Positions 43,884 to 52,310 of a stretch of DNA of 64,000 nucleotides are shown piece after piece. Below the pieces are notes generated by a model. The model was not told where the DNA came from and searched no databases. It saw only the letters and a list, made by a program, of their open reading frames with translations. Source of the DNA: Longibacter salinarum (GTDB taxonomy: Bacteria > Bacteroidota > Rhodothermia > Rhodothermales > Salinibacteraceae). The stretch is taken from NCBI RefSeq assembly GCF_002554795.1, contig NZ_PDEQ01000008.1:62001-126000 (forward strand). The letters are read 5' to 3'. A program made the position numbers and the translations under genes. Numbering within the stretch: position 1 is the first letter of the stretch; every line of letters begins with the position of its first letter.

Positions 43884-45392
43884 GTGCCCGCTTCTTCCTC
43901 CAACCGTACTGTGGTGTCCGATGAGCACGCCGCCTCCCTGCAAAATGTGGAGGAGGTACGCTCTGGCTCCCGTTCGGATGCGATGGATCCCCTGACACTG
44001 GCGGAGAAGAACGCGGTCACGCGGGACGCTGTCGACGCAGCCATTACGCAACGCGTTTATCAGTACACGCGACCCGTATCCGCCGGTCTAGCCGTCATGT
44101 ACGCCGGGTTCTCCGTCTTGCATGTCTTCGCGCTTTCGCCGGCGTCAGCATGGATCATGAGTCCGCTCGCTGCCATAACGGCCCTCGTTTGTTTTGGCCT
44201 CTGGGTGGCATGGAAGAAACTGCCGGTGGAAGCGCCCTACCCGCACATGGTCGGGGCCTTTATCTCCGCGCTGGTCATTGCGAATGTGCTTACTCACATC
44301 GCGGTCGAGGACAATCTGGAGGTGACGACACACCTCATACTTATGCTTCTCGGGACCAGCGTCCTGCTTCTCTCGTCCCGCTGGCTCGCCCTCGTCATCG
44401 TCGCGTCTCTTCTCGGCTGGGGCACGATCGTGCTGACCACGGGACCGTACGCGTCTATCCTGCACTACGCAACCACTCTGCTGACGACGACGCTCCTCTC
44501 AGGAATCATTCATATCGCCCTGCGACGCGCCACCCGTCAGAGCGAGCGACGCCGCCTCTCTGCAGAACGCCTACAAACGGCCCTGTCTCGCGCTCTTGAT
44601 GCTGAAGCACGTGCCCGCCGCCAGCTCGAAGATACGAACCACGCCCTGGAGACGGCGGTGCATGAAGCGGAGGAGTTAAATGAGATGCAGGCCGCCTTTC
44701 TCTCGGACATGAGCCACGAAATTCGCACGCCGCTCACATCGATCATCGGGTTCGCAGAGGTTCTGAGCGAAGAAAACCCTGCCGACGCCGAACACTTTGC
44801 CGACCTGATCCGGCAAAGCAGTGAGCGACTGATGGAAACAGTTAACTCGGTTCTTGACCTCTCGAAACTGAAGCGGGGCGTCGCCGAATTCCGGCCCGAG
44901 CGCGTCGACGTGGACGACCTGCTCCAGGACACGCTCATGCTATTCCGCGGGCGCACCGATGCTGAGGACATGAATCTCGCTCTCGAAACGCCAAAGGAAC
45001 CGGTCGTTGCCCGACTCGACCCCTCCTCGCTCAACCGGATTACGTCAAACCTCGTCAGCAATGCCGTCAAATTCTGTGATGCGGGCGACGACATTACGGT
45101 GCGACTGGAAGCGACGGACGACACCGTTTCGATATCGGTCGAAGATACCGGACCCGGCATTCGACCGGAGTTTCGCGCCAAACTGTTCGAGCCGTTTCAC
45201 CGGGACGAGTCGCTGTCCCGACAGGGCACCGGTCTCGGCCTCACGATTACGCGCCGACTCGTCGAGGCGATGGACGGCACAATCGAGGTCGACAGCGTCT
45301 ACGGCGAAGGAACGACGTTCACGGTTACGCTACCGCGGTCACTCGATGAAGGCGATTTAGAAGTGAGCTCCAGCGAGGCGAGCTGCGCATAG
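43884..45392 (+). CDS. Membrane-bound sensor histidine kinase
   Basis: The protein (502 residues) has five to six membrane helices between about residues 64 and 212, a coiled-coil linker (RRRLSAERLQTALSRALDAE...), a HisKA domain with phosphoacceptor His278 in SDMSHEIRTPL, and a HATPase domain with N-box (NLVSNAVKF), G1 (DTGPGIR) and G2 (GTGLGL). The sensor part is a plain membrane bundle without PAS or periplasmic domain. No response regulator is adjacent; the nearest is the PhoB-like gene 6 kb away on the other strand, whose own operon lacks a kinase. The start is GTG at 43884; Met34 is an alternative. Confidence 0.9.
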   Translation: MPASSSNRTVVSDEHAASLQNVEEVRSGSRSDAMDPLTLAEKNAVTRDAVDAAITQRVYQYTRPVSAGLAVMYAGFSVLHVFALSPASAWIMSPLAAITALVCFGLWVAWKKLPVEAPYPHMVGAFISALVIANVLTHIAVEDNLEVTTHLILMLLGTSVLLLSSRWLALVIVASLLGWGTIVLTTGPYASILHYATTLLTTTLLSGIIHIALRRATRQSERRRLSAERLQTALSRALDAEARARRQLEDTNHALETAVHEAEELNEMQAAFLSDMSHEIRTPLTSIIGFAEVLSEENPADAEHFADLIRQSSERLMETVNSVLDLSKLKRGVAEFRPERVDVDDLLQDTLMLFRGRTDAEDMNLALETPKEPVVARLDPSSLNRITSNLVSNAVKFCDAGDDITVRLEATDDTVSISVEDTGPGIRPEFRAKLFEPFHRDESLSRQGTGLGLTITRRLVEAMDGTIEVDSVYGEGTTFTVTLPRSLDEGDLEVSSSEASCA

Positions 45393-45402
45393 TAGCCACC
45401 GG

Positions 45403-46233
45403 TTAAGCCGCGCGCCGATGCGGTTGCGTCTCCCGCGTTCGGGAAAATAGCTCGTCGCCGTCGGCGTTGCAGAATCGCGTGGTCATCTCCAGCCGATCGA
45501 GCGTGATCACGGCAAAGCCCGGTGTCGCCTCCTGAAACTCAACCCCACTCGGTGAAGCCCCATTCGACAGAGGCTCAGCACCGGCGCCGGCACCGCTCAG
45601 CACCTCGCCGATTCCCTCCTCGTCCGCCAGCTGCAACCGCTGGTCGTACCCGCAGAGATAAGCCTGCGCGCCGAACTGACGGAGCACCGCTCCCACGTCG
45701 TCTCCCCCCGGCTCCGAGGCGAGCGACGACAGCGCATGGTGCCCAATCACGATCTTCCAGTCCGACCGTGAGGGCGCAAGCATGTTGCGAAGCCAGTACA
45801 TCTGCAGCATCGGCTCGCGGTGCGGCACCATGTCGCGGTCACCGGACAGCGGCGTCGAGTCGAGAATCACGAACTGGGCGTGCGTCTGATCGTCGACGCG
45901 CTTGTTGACCGAGTAAAACCGACCCGGCATCCGCCAACGCAGGTCGTGCTTCGCGTACTCCACCTGAGCATCCGGACTTCCCTGATAGCACCGGTCTCCA
46001 AGACAGGCGTACCACGGCAGATCCAGCGTCGGCACGTCGTACACCGCGTCGAAGCTGTCGTGCCACTGCGGATCCAGCACACCGTTGACACCCTTTGGGC
46101 GAAAATTGTCGCCCGTGGTGACGACGAAGTCGACGTCATAACGCTGGGACGCACGAGCAAGCCCCTGGGCAACGGCAGCCTGCTCATGATGCCCATGGCG
46201 ACCCCAGTTGCCGAGAACGAGGAAGGAAAGCAT
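45403..46233 (-). CDS. Calcineurin-like metallophosphoesterase homolog lacking most metal ligands
   Basis: The 276-residue protein follows the plan of purple/tartrate-resistant acid phosphatases: LVLGNWGRHG at the N terminus, TTGDNF, CLGDRCYQG, VIGHHALSS and LCGYDQRLQL. Compared with the family motifs GDxG, GDxxY, GNHD, GHxx and GHDH, the ligand positions read Asn9 for Asp, Arg81-Cys82 for His-Asp, and Tyr196-Gln198 for the two His; only Asp42 and His165-His166 remain. It is therefore probably not a normal dinuclear-metal phosphatase. No signal peptide is seen. It lies 210 bp downstream of phoU on the same strand. The start at 46233 is chosen because motif I begins there. Confidence 0.8.
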   Translation of the reverse strand: MLSFLVLGNWGRHGHHEQAAVAQGLARASQRYDVDFVVTTGDNFRPKGVNGVLDPQWHDSFDAVYDVPTLDLPWYACLGDRCYQGSPDAQVEYAKHDLRWRMPGRFYSVNKRVDDQTHAQFVILDSTPLSGDRDMVPHREPMLQMYWLRNMLAPSRSDWKIVIGHHALSSLASEPGGDDVGAVLRQFGAQAYLCGYDQRLQLADEEGIGEVLSGAGAGAEPLSNGASPSGVEFQEATPGFAVITLDRLEMTTRFCNADGDELFSRTRETQPHRRAA

Positions 46234-46443
46234 GTGGAAACGAGGGAATGGGCAGAAAGACAGTCGAAGTAGCAGATGCACCCGCGAACGGACCCTGTCG
46301 CATAGCCACCGGCGCAAACCATCACTCGGTCATCCCACCGTGGCACGGCACATCCATTACGTTACGCAAGAATGATGACAGTCTACATGGTCCATTTGGG
46401 TTTTTCCTGGGACAAATACGCCTGGAAGCGCTTCAGGAGACGA

Positions 46444-47121
46444 TCATGACGACTCAGCTCGCAAGCCACGGTGGCGAATATCATTGCCCTCGATCATGAA
46501 GACGATGCTCTTGGCAACATTTTTCGCGTGATCCGAAATTCGCTCCAGGCCTTTGCTTGCCGTCAACAGATGCGCCACAACTTCCGCGCGCTCCCGGTGC
46601 GACCTTGACATCTCTACCAGCATGGAGAAGTTGTCCGCGTGCATGCGGTTCACCTGAAGATCACGAGCGATGACCTTTCGCGCCTTCAATCGGTCCTCCT
46701 CCAAAAAGGCGACTTCGACCTCGCGCAGCATGCCGCGGGCCATATCGGCCATCTCGGGAATGTACGTTTTGACGATCAGGCCAGGCCAGTCGACGAGGTG
46801 CTCTGCATTTCGCGATAGATTGCGGCAGTGATCACCGATGCGCTCGAAGTCCGTATTGATCTTCACCGCCATGATCAGCATGCGAAGGTCAACCGCGACG
46901 GGCGCGTGGAGCGCCAGAATGCGCTCGCACTGCTCATCGATCTTCATTTCAAGCTCGTCGATCGCGTCGTCGCGCTCGATCACCGTATCGGCCAGCTCCG
47001 TATCGCCATTCAAGAGCGCATTGGTCGCGTCGGCGAACTGCTCGTCCACGCGCCCAGCCATTTCGATGATCAGGCTCTGCAACGATGCCAGCTCGCGATC
47101 TAGCTGTAATCGGTTAGACAT
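46444..47121 (-). CDS. phoU: Phosphate transport regulator PhoU
   Basis: The protein (225 residues) is all-helical with the two PhoU repeats. The repeat signature EDxxxxxxExxVDxxC is represented by RDDAIDELEMKIDEQCERIL in the first half, followed by INTDFERIGDHCRNLSRNA, and the second half has LERISDHAKNVAKSIVFMIEG. PhoU links the Pst transporter to the PhoR-PhoB system and shuts it down when phosphate is plentiful. The ATG at 47121 (MSNRLQLDREL) gives the family N terminus. It is the last classical gene of the pst operon. Confidence 0.95.
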   Translation of the reverse strand: MSNRLQLDRELASLQSLIIEMAGRVDEQFADATNALLNGDTELADTVIERDDAIDELEMKIDEQCERILALHAPVAVDLRMLIMAVKINTDFERIGDHCRNLSRNAEHLVDWPGLIVKTYIPEMADMARGMLREVEVAFLEEDRLKARKVIARDLQVNRMHADNFSMLVEMSRSHRERAEVVAHLLTASKGLERISDHAKNVAKSIVFMIEGNDIRHRGLRAESS

Positions 47122-47208: not shown

Positions 47209-48096
47209 TCAGCCGAAGCGTCCGGTAACATATGCTTCCGTGCGGTCATTTTGAGGACGCGTGAAGATCTGATCGGTTCGATTCATCTCCACGAGCTTCC
47301 CCATGTACAGGAACGCGGTCTCGTCGCTGATCCGCGAGGCCTGCTGCATATTATGTGTTACGATGATAATCGTATAATCGTTTTTCAGCTCGGTAATCGT
47401 TTCCTCCACCTTAGAGGTCGCGATAGGATCGAGCGCGCTGGCCGGCTCATCCATCAGTACCACGTCGGGCTCCACCGCGAGGGTCCGCGCGATGCACAGA
47501 CGCTGCTGCTGGCCGCCGCTCAGGTCGTACGCCGGCGCACCCAGACGATCCTTGACCTCGTCCCAGAGAGCAGCCTGACGTAGGGATCGCTCGACGAGCG
47601 CGTCCATGTCGCCCGTAAATCCGTTGATCTTCGCACCCCACGCGACATTCTTGTAGATCGTCTTGGGGAATGGATTCGGCTTCTGAAAAACCATTCCGAT
47701 TCGGCGTCGGACCATCACCGGATCCGCCTTGCGGTCGTAGATGTCCTGGCCGTCCAGCGTAATGCGTCCCTCAAGTGTCGTACCCTGGATCAGCTCGTTC
47801 ATGCGGTTCATACAGCGGAGCAGTGTCGACTTCCCACAGCCGGATGGCCCGATGAGCGCCGTCACCCTGTTCGGCTGAATATCCATCGTGATGCCCTTCA
47901 GCGCGTGGGTGTCGCCGTACCAGAAGTTGAGATCCTCGACCCGAATCTTTGCCATACCACTGTGTTCTGACGCTCTGATCGCTTGGCTCGGCTCCGCCGC
48001 CTCATCACCCCGATGCGCCGCTGCACCATTCGTACGGGGATCCGTTTCCGCGAGCGGCTCCGTGCGCGGGTTCGATGTCTTGGTAGAATCGGTCAT
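47209..48096 (-). CDS. pstB: Phosphate ABC transporter ATP-binding protein PstB
   Basis: The ABC ATPase of 295 residues has Walker [10 protein letters not shown], the Q-loop [12 protein letters not shown] typical of PstB, the signature [16 protein letters not shown], Walker [14 protein letters not shown] and the H-loop [10 protein letters not shown]. It powers phosphate uptake through PstC-PstA. The first 47 residues are a polar extension before [14 protein letters not shown]; translation could start at either methionine. It sits 57 bp after pstA and 87 bp before phoU. Confidence 0.96.
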
Positions 48097-48153: not shown

Positions 48154-49035
48154 TCAGTCGCCCGCCCGCTTTCCCTCGAAGTAATTGCGAAGCAGAATGG
48201 CCGACAGGTTCATCGCGAACAGCAAGATCATGAGGACCACAATCGCCGCGGCGGCCAATCCACGGAATTCGTCCTGCGGCCGGGCCGTCCAGTTGAAGAT
48301 CTGAATCGGCAGGACCGTAAACGGGTCGAGCACGCTGTTCGGCGCCATCACCATTCCGGCCGCGCCGACCATGATCAGCGGGGCAGTTTCTCCGATCGCA
48401 CGACTCAGCGAAAGGATGACGCCCGTCAGAATGCCCGGAGCGGCCGATGGCAGCACATGACTCCAGATCACCTGCGACCGGGTGGCGCCGAGAGCAAACG
48501 CAGCTTCACGCATTCCGCTCGGGATTCCGCGAAGTGCCTCCTGCGTGCTGATTATGATGATCGGGAGGACGAGCAGGCCAAGCGTCATCGCCCCGGCCAT
48601 CACGCTGCTTCCCAGCGCGACGAACCGGACGAAGATAGCGAGCCCCAGAATGCCGTAAATCACGGAAGGCACGCCGGCGAGGTTGGCGATATTCACCTGA
48701 ATCGTCTGCAGGAACCAGCCTTCGGTTGCGTACTCCTCGAGGTATATCGCGGAGGCCACACCAAGCGGGACGGCGATAAGCCCCGTCAGCCCCATCACCC
48801 AGAGCGAGCCGACGATGGCCGGCCAGATGCCGGCACGCTCCGGCAGCCGCGACGGCATCTGCGTCAGAAACTCCACATTGAGCCACGGTGCAGCCTGGAC
48901 AGCCACATCCACGAGCAATGCGATGAGTACCAGGAGTCCGAACACGGTGGCGAGGAAGAAGAAGCCGGCCATGAAGGCACCAAACGCTTTCCGTCGGTCT
49001 CGCCTCAACTGGAATGTACCCGAAGCATCGGTCAT
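48154..49035 (-). CDS. pstA: Phosphate ABC transporter permease PstA
   Basis: This 293-residue membrane protein has six helices. The inner-loop motif EALRGIPSGMREAAFALGATRSQVI, with the EAA-type GATR contact site for PstB, is followed by SLSRAIGETAPLIMVGA, a hallmark of PstA. It forms the phosphate channel with PstC. A long periplasmic loop lies between helices 1 and 2. Confidence 0.95.
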   Translation of the reverse strand: MTDASGTFQLRRDRRKAFGAFMAGFFFLATVFGLLVLIALLVDVAVQAAPWLNVEFLTQMPSRLPERAGIWPAIVGSLWVMGLTGLIAVPLGVASAIYLEEYATEGWFLQTIQVNIANLAGVPSVIYGILGLAIFVRFVALGSSVMAGAMTLGLLVLPIIIISTQEALRGIPSGMREAAFALGATRSQVIWSHVLPSAAPGILTGVILSLSRAIGETAPLIMVGAAGMVMAPNSVLDPFTVLPIQIFNWTARPQDEFRGLAAAAIVVLMILLFAMNLSAILLRNYFEGKRAGD

Positions 49036-49111: not shown

Positions 49112-50191
49112 TTAGTATTTGTCCTGGTAGCGAGCGACAATTCGATTCGCGAGGATGTTCATTCCAAGCGTGATCAGAAACAGCACGAGTCCGACCGCGA
49201 AGAGCGACTTGTACTCGATCGTCGACTGCGCGATGTCGCCTTTCCCCATCTGTACGATAAATGCCGTCATCGTCTGAATCGACTCCGTCGGGTCGAGCGT
49301 CAGCTTCGGCGTTGCCCCGGCGGCCAGCGTCACGATCATCGTTTCGCCAATCGCGCGGCTGAGAGCCAGAATGAAGCTCGCCACGATGCCGCTAAATGCC
49401 GACGGCACCACCACGCGCATAACCACCTCAAGCTTCGTCGCGCCGAGAGCGTAGGCCCCGTTCCACAGGCTCCTGGGCACCGCCTGGATTGCATCTTCGC
49501 TCAGGGAGGCCACCATCGGGATCACCATGATGCCGACGACGATCCCGGCGCTCAGTGCGTTGAAAACACCGAGGTCGCCCGTCCAGGGCTCAGTGGGTGG
49601 GGACACGAAGGGCAGCAGACGCAGGACAAACGCATAGGCCTCGTAGAAAACGGGAGCGACGTGCGGCAAAGCGGTCTGCAACAACGGTGTCACGAAGGTG
49701 AGCGCAAAGTAACCGTAGACAACCGTCGGCACGCCGGCCAGCAGTTCGATTCCGGGCTTCAGCCATTTTCGAAGCCAGACCGGAGCATACGCACTCAGGT
49801 AGATGGCACTCGCGAGGCCGAGCGGCATCGAAACCAGAGCCGAGATGACTGTAATCAGCACAGTGCCCGCGATGAGCGGCCAGATGCCAAAATGCTTGTC
49901 CGCAAACTGCGGGGTCCACTGCGTGCTGCCAAGAAACTCTCCAATGCTCACCTCCTGAAAGAAGGCCGCGGACTCGACGACGAGGACGGCAGCGATCCCG
50001 AGTGTGGTAAGGATGCTCACGAGTGCGCATGCGCCGAGTGCGTATCGAATCACCCGTTCTTTCGGGCTATCGAAGACGTTCGCATGGAGGGTCTCGCCGG
50101 TCCGACTCCCTTTCGACGCGGCCGAAGCTGCCGCCGGATCGACGGCGGACTCAGAGACCGGCGCCTCAGATGTGGACGTGGGATCTGTCAT
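49112..50191 (-). CDS. pstC: Phosphate ABC transporter permease PstC
   Basis: The protein (359 residues) has six helices and the PstC contact motif AIQAVPRSLWNGAYALGATKLEV followed by LSRAIGETMIVTLAAG. An N-terminal polar stretch of about 45 residues precedes the first helix (YALGACALVSILTTLGIAAV). A large extracytoplasmic segment (FGIWPLIAGT upstream, VFYEAYAFVLRLLPFVSPP later) lies between helices. It pairs with PstA. Confidence 0.94.
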   Translation of the reverse strand: MTDPTSTSEAPVSESAVDPAAASAASKGSRTGETLHANVFDSPKERVIRYALGACALVSILTTLGIAAVLVVESAAFFQEVSIGEFLGSTQWTPQFADKHFGIWPLIAGTVLITVISALVSMPLGLASAIYLSAYAPVWLRKWLKPGIELLAGVPTVVYGYFALTFVTPLLQTALPHVAPVFYEAYAFVLRLLPFVSPPTEPWTGDLGVFNALSAGIVVGIMVIPMVASLSEDAIQAVPRSLWNGAYALGATKLEVVMRVVVPSAFSGIVASFILALSRAIGETMIVTLAAGATPKLTLDPTESIQTMTAFIVQMGKGDIAQSTIEYKSLFAVGLVLFLITLGMNILANRIVARYQDKY

Positions 50192-50253: not shown

Positions 50254-51324
50254 TTATTCCGCGGGTGGACCGGACACCGAGTCGGCCGGTGCCGTGCCGC
50301 CGCGAAGGACTGTTTCGATATCGGCACTGGCCTTCACATCCTCTCGGCCAAACAGCGTCCCGGTGCGGCCTTCGGTGAAACGCTGCAATCCGAGCGCGTA
50401 CGCCTGATCCGACAGCGGGACGTAGCCGACCTGGGGTGCAAGATTCGCCACGTTGTCCATGTAGAACTGAATGAAGCGCTGGATGGCCTCCCGCTTCGCT
50501 GCTTCGGAACGGATGTACACGAACAGGGGACGCGAGAGCGGGCGGTACTCGCCCGTTTGAATGGTCGACGCGTTCGGCGCGATGCACTCCGCCCCTCCAC
50601 CAAGGGTGTCGGCGTCAACCTTCATCAGAACAAGCTTGTCGGCGTTGTTCTCGTAGTACGCAAAGCCGAAGTATCCCAGAGCGCCCGTCGTGCCAGACAC
50701 GCCCTGGACCAAAACGTTGTCGTCTTCGCTCGCGCTAAAATCCGTCCGGCTGGCCCCACTCTCTCCAACAACCGCCTCCGTAAAGTAGTCGTACGTGCCA
50801 CTCGCCGTCCCCGGACCATACAGCTTCAAAGACACATCGGGAAATCCGTCTCGGACATCACTCCACTGCGTGACCTCGCTGTTCGGTTCCCAGATGCGGC
50901 GAAGTTCGTCAGCGGTCAGGCAATCTGTCCAGTCGACACCTGGATGGGCGGTCACAGCAATCCCGTCGTACGCGACCGGCATCTCGATAAACGAAATTCC
51001 AGCCTCGTCGGCACGCTCGATCTCGCTCGGCGTGATCGGACGCGAGGCGTCATTCATGTCGGTTTCAGCGCGGAGAAATTTTGAGAATCCACCGCCGGTC
51101 CCGCTCTCCCCAACCGTTACTCGAACATCCGGATTCGCCCGCATGAACTCCTCTGCCACGGCTTCCGTCAGCGGATACGTTGTGCTCGACCCATCGATAC
51201 GGATCGTTGTCGTCGAGGCCTCGTCATTCCCGCACCCTGAGATAACAAAAAGCAGAAGAAACACAAGCGTACATCTTAACACGCTCGATCGGGCGATTGC
51301 GTAGCTGGAGAGAAAGCCAATCAT
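50254..51324 (-). CDS. pstS: Phosphate-binding lipoprotein PstS
   Basis: The 356-residue protein starts with a lipoprotein signal (TLVFLLLFVISGC, Cys31) and has the PstS-type binding-protein fold: IRIDGSSTTYPLTEAV, GESGTGGGFSKF with the phosphate-binding loop, ASRPITPSE, YDGIAVTAHPG and KLYGPGTASGTYDYF. It captures phosphate at the outside of the inner membrane and passes it to PstCA. The lipid anchor is in line with organisms that tether PstS to the inner membrane. Confidence 0.94.
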   Translation of the reverse strand: MIGFLSSYAIARSSVLRCTLVFLLLFVISGCGNDEASTTTIRIDGSSTTYPLTEAVAEEFMRANPDVRVTVGESGTGGGFSKFLRAETDMNDASRPITPSEIERADEAGISFIEMPVAYDGIAVTAHPGVDWTDCLTADELRRIWEPNSEVTQWSDVRDGFPDVSLKLYGPGTASGTYDYFTEAVVGESGASRTDFSASEDDNVLVQGVSGTTGALGYFGFAYYENNADKLVLMKVDADTLGGGAECIAPNASTIQTGEYRPLSRPLFVYIRSEAAKREAIQRFIQFYMDNVANLAPQVGYVPLSDQAYALGLQRFTEGRTGTLFGREDVKASADIETVLRGGTAPADSVSGPPAE

Positions 51325-51383: not shown

Positions 51384-52088
51384 TTACTCTTTGAACTTAT
51401 AACCGACCCCTTTGACGGTCTCGATATACGTACTGCCGATTTTCTCCCGGATCTTTCGGACGTGGACATCGACGGTCCGGTCGACCACGTAGACGTCCGG
51501 TCCCCACACCTCGTCGAGGATTTCCTGCCGGGAAAAAACTTTGCCCGGATGTGAGGCAAGGAAGTACAACAACTCAAATTCTTTCCTCGGCATCCGAAGC
51601 TCCTCTTCTTCACCCTCGCGCTCCTGAAAAACGAGGTAGCGATCGCGATCCACGGTTAGATCATGCACGGCGAGCTTGTCTGGTGCCACCTCATATCGAC
51701 GCGCCGAGCGAAGCAGTGCCTTCGCCTGACTCACGATGACGGAAATGCTGACCGGCTTACTAAGGTAGATGTCCGCACCTACATCGAGCCCGGCGACCTG
51801 ATCTTCCTCTTCGCTTCTAGCGGTCAACATCATGATGGGAATGGTTCGCAGGTGCGCATCGGCCCGAAGGCGACGGCACGCCTCAATCCCGTCCATGCGA
51901 GGCATCATGACATCCAGAACAATCAGATCTGGGTCATGCTCACGAGCGGCATCCAGCGCCTCAACGCCGTCGTGCGCCTGCAACGTGTTGTAGCCCTCCT
52001 GCTTGAGATTGTACTCCAGGAGGTCGAGCAAGTCTTCCTCGTCATCCACGATGAGGATCGTGGGGGCATCAGAGCGTGGTTCTTCCAC
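51384..52088 (-). CDS. phoB: PhoB-like OmpR-family response regulator
   Basis: The 234-residue protein has a receiver domain (ILIVDDEEDLLDLLEYNL, phosphoacceptor Asp59 in LIVLDVMMPRMDG, and the conserved Lys of LSKPVS) and a C-terminal winged-helix OmpR-type domain (RKEFELLYFLASHPGKVFSRQEIL, VDRTVDVHVRKIREKIG, ETVKGVGYKF). It heads the pst operon with 59 bp to pstS. The cognate kinase phoR is absent from the operon. No clear Pho box was recognised by eye upstream (52089-52310). Confidence 0.92.
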   Translation of the reverse strand: MEEPRSDAPTILIVDDEEDLLDLLEYNLKQEGYNTLQAHDGVEALDAAREHDPDLIVLDVMMPRMDGIEACRRLRADAHLRTIPIMMLTARSEEEDQVAGLDVGADIYLSKPVSISVIVSQAKALLRSARRYEVAPDKLAVHDLTVDRDRYLVFQEREGEEEELRMPRKEFELLYFLASHPGKVFSRQEILDEVWGPDVYVVDRTVDVHVRKIREKIGSTYIETVKGVGYKFKE

Positions 52089-52310
52089 GGCGAAGGTAGC
52101 GGGTTCGTGGGCGGCGTGTGTGTGCGTATGTTACCCTCATCACAAGCACTACGTTGTTATGGAAAGTTTATTATCGCTACATGCCACCATGAACAGGTCA
52201 GATTTTCGCCCGCCCTTGGTTCATATTCCGCATCAATCGTTCGCCGGAACGTCGTCGTCATGACTCGTATCTGATGGGCACGGCTTTCCCCATTCGTTCA
52301 ACCTCGCCCT

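Follow-up and report, generated by a model that had tools for sequence, protein, structure and literature searches.

An apparent pseudo-purple acid phosphatase encoded behind phoU in Longibacter salinarum, with a proposed connection to phosphate control

Tartrate-resistant acid phosphatase (TRAP) is a human bone enzyme of the purple acid phosphatase (PAP) family. A PAP-like protein may also serve without catalysis, as with GAP50, the glideosome anchor of Plasmodium, which has a structural and non-enzymatic role. GAP50 has nevertheless been termed a fully active ACP5 unit (PMC4256932), and its catalytic status is uncertain. A second precedent is VPS29 of the retromer, in which the metallophosphoesterase fold acts as a protein-binding scaffold (PMC9636581). 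Among bacteria, direct homologues of the protein described here are found in Bacteroidota and relatives at 30-40% identity ('tartrate-resistant acid phosphatase type 5 family'); all those checked residue by residue have an intact site, and most of those in this order are apparent lipoproteins. In the literature searched, in which subscription papers were only partly covered, we found no bacterial pseudo-PAP described. PhoU is described as a link between Pst and PhoR whose mechanism is not yet clear (PMC9239213), and the question of how the intracellular phosphate state is conveyed to PhoU and the Pho kinase is still unsettled.

The window, the whole 64,000-nucleotide stretch analysed here, encodes a bacterial pseudo-PAP with an apparent link to the phosphate regulon. 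By analogy its kind would be a known one, VPS29 being a scaffold with the same fold. The relevant features are as follows.

43884..45392, plus strand: membrane-type histidine kinase (HisKA and HATPase_c)
45403..46233, minus strand: pseudo-PAP gene (TRAP/ACP5-type fold), 276 aa, without signal peptide
46234..46443, minus strand: leader between phoU and the pseudo-PAP gene, 210 bp
46357..46378, minus strand: phoB-type (Pho-box-like) motif TCATCATTCTTGCGTAACGTAA, ~145 bp upstream of the pseudo-PAP start
46444..47121, minus strand: phoU, start at MSNRL (mechanical ORF from 47199)
47209..48096, minus strand: pstB
48154..49035, minus strand: pstA
49112..50191, minus strand: pstC
50254..51324, minus strand: pstS
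51384..52088, minus strand: phoB (response regulator, winged helix)
52152..52173, minus strand: phoB-upstream motif TAATAAACTTTCCATAACAACG, conserved across the family

The pseudo-PAP ORF has 276 codons and starts with an ATG at 46233. Its product matches Pfam Metallophos (PF00149; E 4.5e-7) and, by phmmer, human TRAP (2bq8; E 2.8e-36, residues 2-267). The solved structures closest to it by sequence are all tartrate-resistant/purple acid phosphatases, followed by GAP50. An AlphaFold2 model built with a 39-sequence alignment has a pLDDT of 95 and a pTM of 0.93; it superposes on 2bq8 with a Z of 38.2 over 269 residues at 1.9 A, and Foldseek comparison with TRAP-type structures gives TM values of 0.86-0.88. 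Thus the acid phosphatase fold proposed in the original prediction is upheld, and the protein is by prediction a well-folded homologue that belongs to the TRAP/ACP5-type PAPs as a fold and homology family, on full-length similarity of both sequence and fold. It shares with TRAP (ACP5 type; 2bq8, 1ute; PF00149) the full-length fold (at 30% identity), the domain boundaries, the GDN and GHH motifs and the C-terminal LCG and SGAG. It differs from TRAP in that five of the seven metal ligands and the catalytic His are replaced, and in its predicted cytoplasmic location and its place beside a Pst operon. GAP50 (3tgh; Z 35) has the same TRAP fold but is eukaryotic and membrane-anchored, and the likeness is one of fold, not residue by residue. 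VPS29, also eukaryotic, belongs to another, smaller subfamily and has VPS35 as its partner.

PAP chemistry requires two metals, and in mammalian numbering their ligands are D14, D52, Y55, N91, H186, H221 and H223. Most of these are given for human PAP under another numbering (PMC13319145). Alignment to 2bq8 places the motifs of the window protein (GNWG, GDN, GDRC, GHH and GYDQ) at D14, D52, N91/H92/D93, H186 and H221/H223, and defines a former active site of N9, D42, R45, D80, R81, C82, H165, Y196 and Q198. Where an active PAP has D, D, Y, N, H, H, H as ligands, the window protein has N, D, R, D, H, Y, Q. Five of the seven are therefore changed (D9N, Y45R, N80D, H196Y and H198Q), leaving only D42 and H165. 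Y45R turns GDNFY into GDNFR and removes the Fe(III)-tyrosinate ligand. Within GNHD, the catalytic His is replaced as well (H81R), and D82C changes a motif residue that is not a ligand. The original prediction had listed the three altered and two retained motifs correctly; its count of four changed ligand positions was one short, Y45R having been overlooked. With pocket geometry read by homology, the M1 (Fe3+) site is lost through D9 to Asn (Asp in the sister species), Tyr45 to Arg and His198 to Gln (Glu in the sister), and the M2 shell is rewritten as Asp42/Asp80/His165/Tyr196.

Homologues were sought in 148 relatives, then in 114 genomes of the order, and in a further sample of the phylum. 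A homologue was present in only 15 genomes of the order search, and the phylum sample added ~50. The only other genome of the genus (G001) encodes a homologue 75% identical to the window protein, on a contig that matches a Great Salt Lake MAG contig. We tabulated the nine active-site positions in 41 proteins: the window protein, the sister protein and 39 others. The window protein reads N D R D R C H Y Q and the sister D D R D R C H Y E, while 39/39 others read D D (Y or H) N H (D or E) H H H, with His in place of the Tyr ligand in five of them. This normal group includes the homologue from a neighbouring genus of the same family (G006), which was joined from two overlapping contigs. R45, D80, R81, C82 and Y196 are thus common to both members of the genus, and positions 9 (D/N) and 198 (E/Q) differ; the window species has lost one ligand more (D9N) than its sister. 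Because an independent assembly of the sister species shares five changes at 75% identity, they cannot be ascribed to chance or sequencing error, and because both members have them, the loss dates to the ancestor of the genus. The original prediction had called for a check of whether homologues conserve the altered residues, and the sister does so except at positions 9 and 198. It had also taken intact motifs in sister species as a sign of recent decay. Such decay is discounted, since the only other genome of the genus is also degenerate and the intact homologues lie in another genus.

Selection on the gene pair was estimated from dN (0.15) and dS (1.40, which is near saturation), giving a dN/dS of ~0.11. 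The corresponding values are 0.11 for PstC, 0.15 for the kinase and 0.03 to 0.15 across neighbouring genes. The other homologues conserve 61 alignment columns, of which the window protein has lost 7/9 at the active site versus 9/52 elsewhere (Fisher P = 0.0007). In the tree, the pair and G006 group with full support; after the split from the intact G006 protein the stem measures 1.02 and the tips 0.22 and 0.14. The long stem with short tips is the mark of rapid change when catalysis was lost, with constraint restored later. Read from these alignments, the common ancestor of the genus had already lost the binuclear site, and purifying selection has since kept the gene, in a degenerate form known from two genomes only. 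The window protein thus has the marks of a pseudoenzyme: catalytic residues gone, predicted fold kept, a loss common to two species, and purifying selection at dN/dS 0.11 between those two genomes. We conclude that the proposal of a catalytically dead phosphatase-like protein is well supported.

No signal peptide is found in either protein of the genus, and the G006 ORF is unable to carry one. In most relatives within the order the N termini, read by eye, are lipoprotein-like, and these proteins appear to be lipoproteins. We rejected the idea that the ORF extends upstream into a signal peptide: the extensions are unrelated between the two species, and in G006 the ORF is closed four codons 5' of the ATG. 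The pseudo-PAP is accordingly predicted to be a cytoplasmic protein.

The gene was said to lie immediately after phoU. Order and strand are as described, with a gap of 210 bp between the two; the gaps measured among the pst genes further upstream are 57-76 bp. On its other side it converges with the histidine kinase gene, 10 bp away, an arrangement kept in the sister. The whole order, kinase > < PAP < phoU < pstBACS < phoB, is identical in the two species. The kinase (502 aa, with membrane segments predicted by eye) is a candidate Pho sensor. The window phoB operon itself contains no kinase.

The leader carries a phoB-type motif. A scan for E. coli-style Pho boxes gave one match in the 64 kb versus about four expected, which is not significant, although a half site of that style (CTGTCAT) overlaps the leader motif. 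A family-specific matrix was therefore derived from 14 distinct phoB sites with the PAP leader left out; two of the 14 belong to a second phoB-like gene of the genus. The underlying motif, GATAATAnTTCnATAACAAC, has TAA half-sites 11 bp apart and precedes phoB in most of the family. The leader site at 46357-46378 scores 11.2 bits and ranks second in the window after phoB's own site; the next-best score among ~128,000 other window positions is 5.8. Scores like that of the leader site are expected ~7-10 times per Mb per strand, corresponding to P ~0.002 for a 210-bp leader. The motif block is also the 24-mer that the leaders of the two species conserve best (20/24, against a maximum of 17 in 40 shuffles). 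Despite this, the sister site scores -5.8 against the matrix because its second half-site is TCAC, not TAAC. Scans of 45300-46500 found no sigma-70 promoter and no strong terminator, with one weak terminator-like site within the coding region. Thus the suggested link to phosphate genes stands on synteny in both species and on the motif in the window species, and is weaker on the motif in the sister. In the window species, the pseudo-PAP gene is probably under PhoB control.

Since the catalytic residues are lost yet the gene is preserved beside phosphate-sensing genes in two related species, a non-enzymatic role is probable. The steps of the explanation we favour descend in strength. First, the protein would be unable to hydrolyse phosphomonoesters via the PAP mechanism. 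Second, phosphate limitation would induce its expression through a PhoB-controlled promoter of its own. Third, it would act non-catalytically in the cytoplasm in phosphate control, tuning Pho signalling, a role that we infer to be likely. Taken whole, this account of a maintained dead PAP, expressed under PhoB and serving phosphate control in the cytoplasm, seems to us evenly poised between right and wrong. The third step could take two forms. In one, Arg45 and Arg81 in the former pocket would bind phosphate or a phosphoester, or might pair with the remaining acids in place of the metals. The other would make the protein a binding scaffold on the Pst-PhoU-kinase complex, much as VPS29 is in retromer; this complex is the obvious candidate partner, given the known connection of Pst and PhoR through PhoU. 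The roles of phosphate or phosphoester sensor and of adaptor put forward in the original prediction are likewise hypothetical. A narrower version, in which a TRAP-type phosphatase has become a cytoplasmic, metal-poor receptor for phosphate or phosphoesters acting on PhoU or the Pho histidine kinase, a pseudo-acid-phosphatase of bacteria incorporated into phosphate sensing, is tentative and, so specified, rather doubtful.

The protein may instead be a pseudoenzyme unrelated to Pho signalling, a cytoplasmic scaffold or binding protein employed elsewhere whose gene moved behind phoU by chance, with or without acquiring a Pho promoter. The intact syntenic homologue in G006 adjoins an acyl-CoA thioesterase gene, away from phoU, and in the window the orthologue of that thioesterase gene is found two genes from the pseudo-PAP gene. 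PAP and thioesterase genes have the same relative orientation in both, with the kinase inserted between them in the window. The PAP gene is therefore older than its phoU neighbourhood. None of the other PAPs examined is near phoU; the adjacency is thus genus-specific and could be a chance rearrangement. Against this, the neighbourhood is kept in both species and the leader contains the phoB-type motif, and we think an unrelated role unlikely.

It is also conceivable that the protein has residual or new activity, because D42, D80, H165 and Y196 could hold a single metal. A new or weak hydrolase would then bind its phosphoester on R45 and R81. The rewritten M2 positions (N to D, H to Y) are still possible metal ligands, their substitutions are identical in both species, and Cys82 is new and common to both. 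However, the M1 site and the catalytic His are gone in a family whose chemistry needs two metals, and the species differ at positions 9 and 198, which is unexpected of catalytic residues. We consider such neofunctionalization improbable. Cys82, present in both dead proteins, and Cys194 adjoin the former active site and could form a disulfide or a Cys-containing metal site there.

Slow decay of an unneeded phosphatase, with the active site lost first and drift under relaxed constraint thereafter, would account for the accelerated stem and the additional D9N, but is disfavoured, indeed very improbable, given the low dN/dS, two ORFs intact at 24% protein divergence, differences of 0.11 at codon position 2 versus 0.49 at position 3, a confidently predicted fold, and losses clustered in the active site rather than spread.

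No intact TRAP paralogue was found in the host genome, which gave one hit only at E 1e-10; it does have 11 further Metallophos ORFs, three PhoD phosphatases and one of PhoA type. Among plasmid records, none matched the degenerate form closely, all falling under 60% identity.

If the favoured account is true, the dead phosphatase next to phoU, whose gene has a phoB-type site of its own, would feed into phosphate sensing as an accessory input. The locus is also a clean example of a metalloenzyme that became a pseudoenzyme inside a single bacterial genus, and the neighbouring genus supplies an intact syntenic homologue for comparison. Ahead of its Q-x-x-W motif that homologue (G006) carries an insertion of ~45 residues rich in Gly/Ala/Arg; unusually for the family, it lacks a signal peptide, so that it appears to be a cytoplasmic PAP.

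Upstream of phoB, a strongly conserved motif, TGATAATAGTTCGATAACAACA, lies at ~50-110 bp in most genomes of the family (L055-L082) and looks like the Pho box of phoB. The second phoB-like gene of the genus (G000:C6:127708-128385, L082; G001:C56:1372-2052, L081) is 67% identical, and the motif upstream of it is related. Its G000 copy stands between an MshB-like deacetylase gene on the upstream side and a gene for a PhoR-like histidine kinase on the downstream side.
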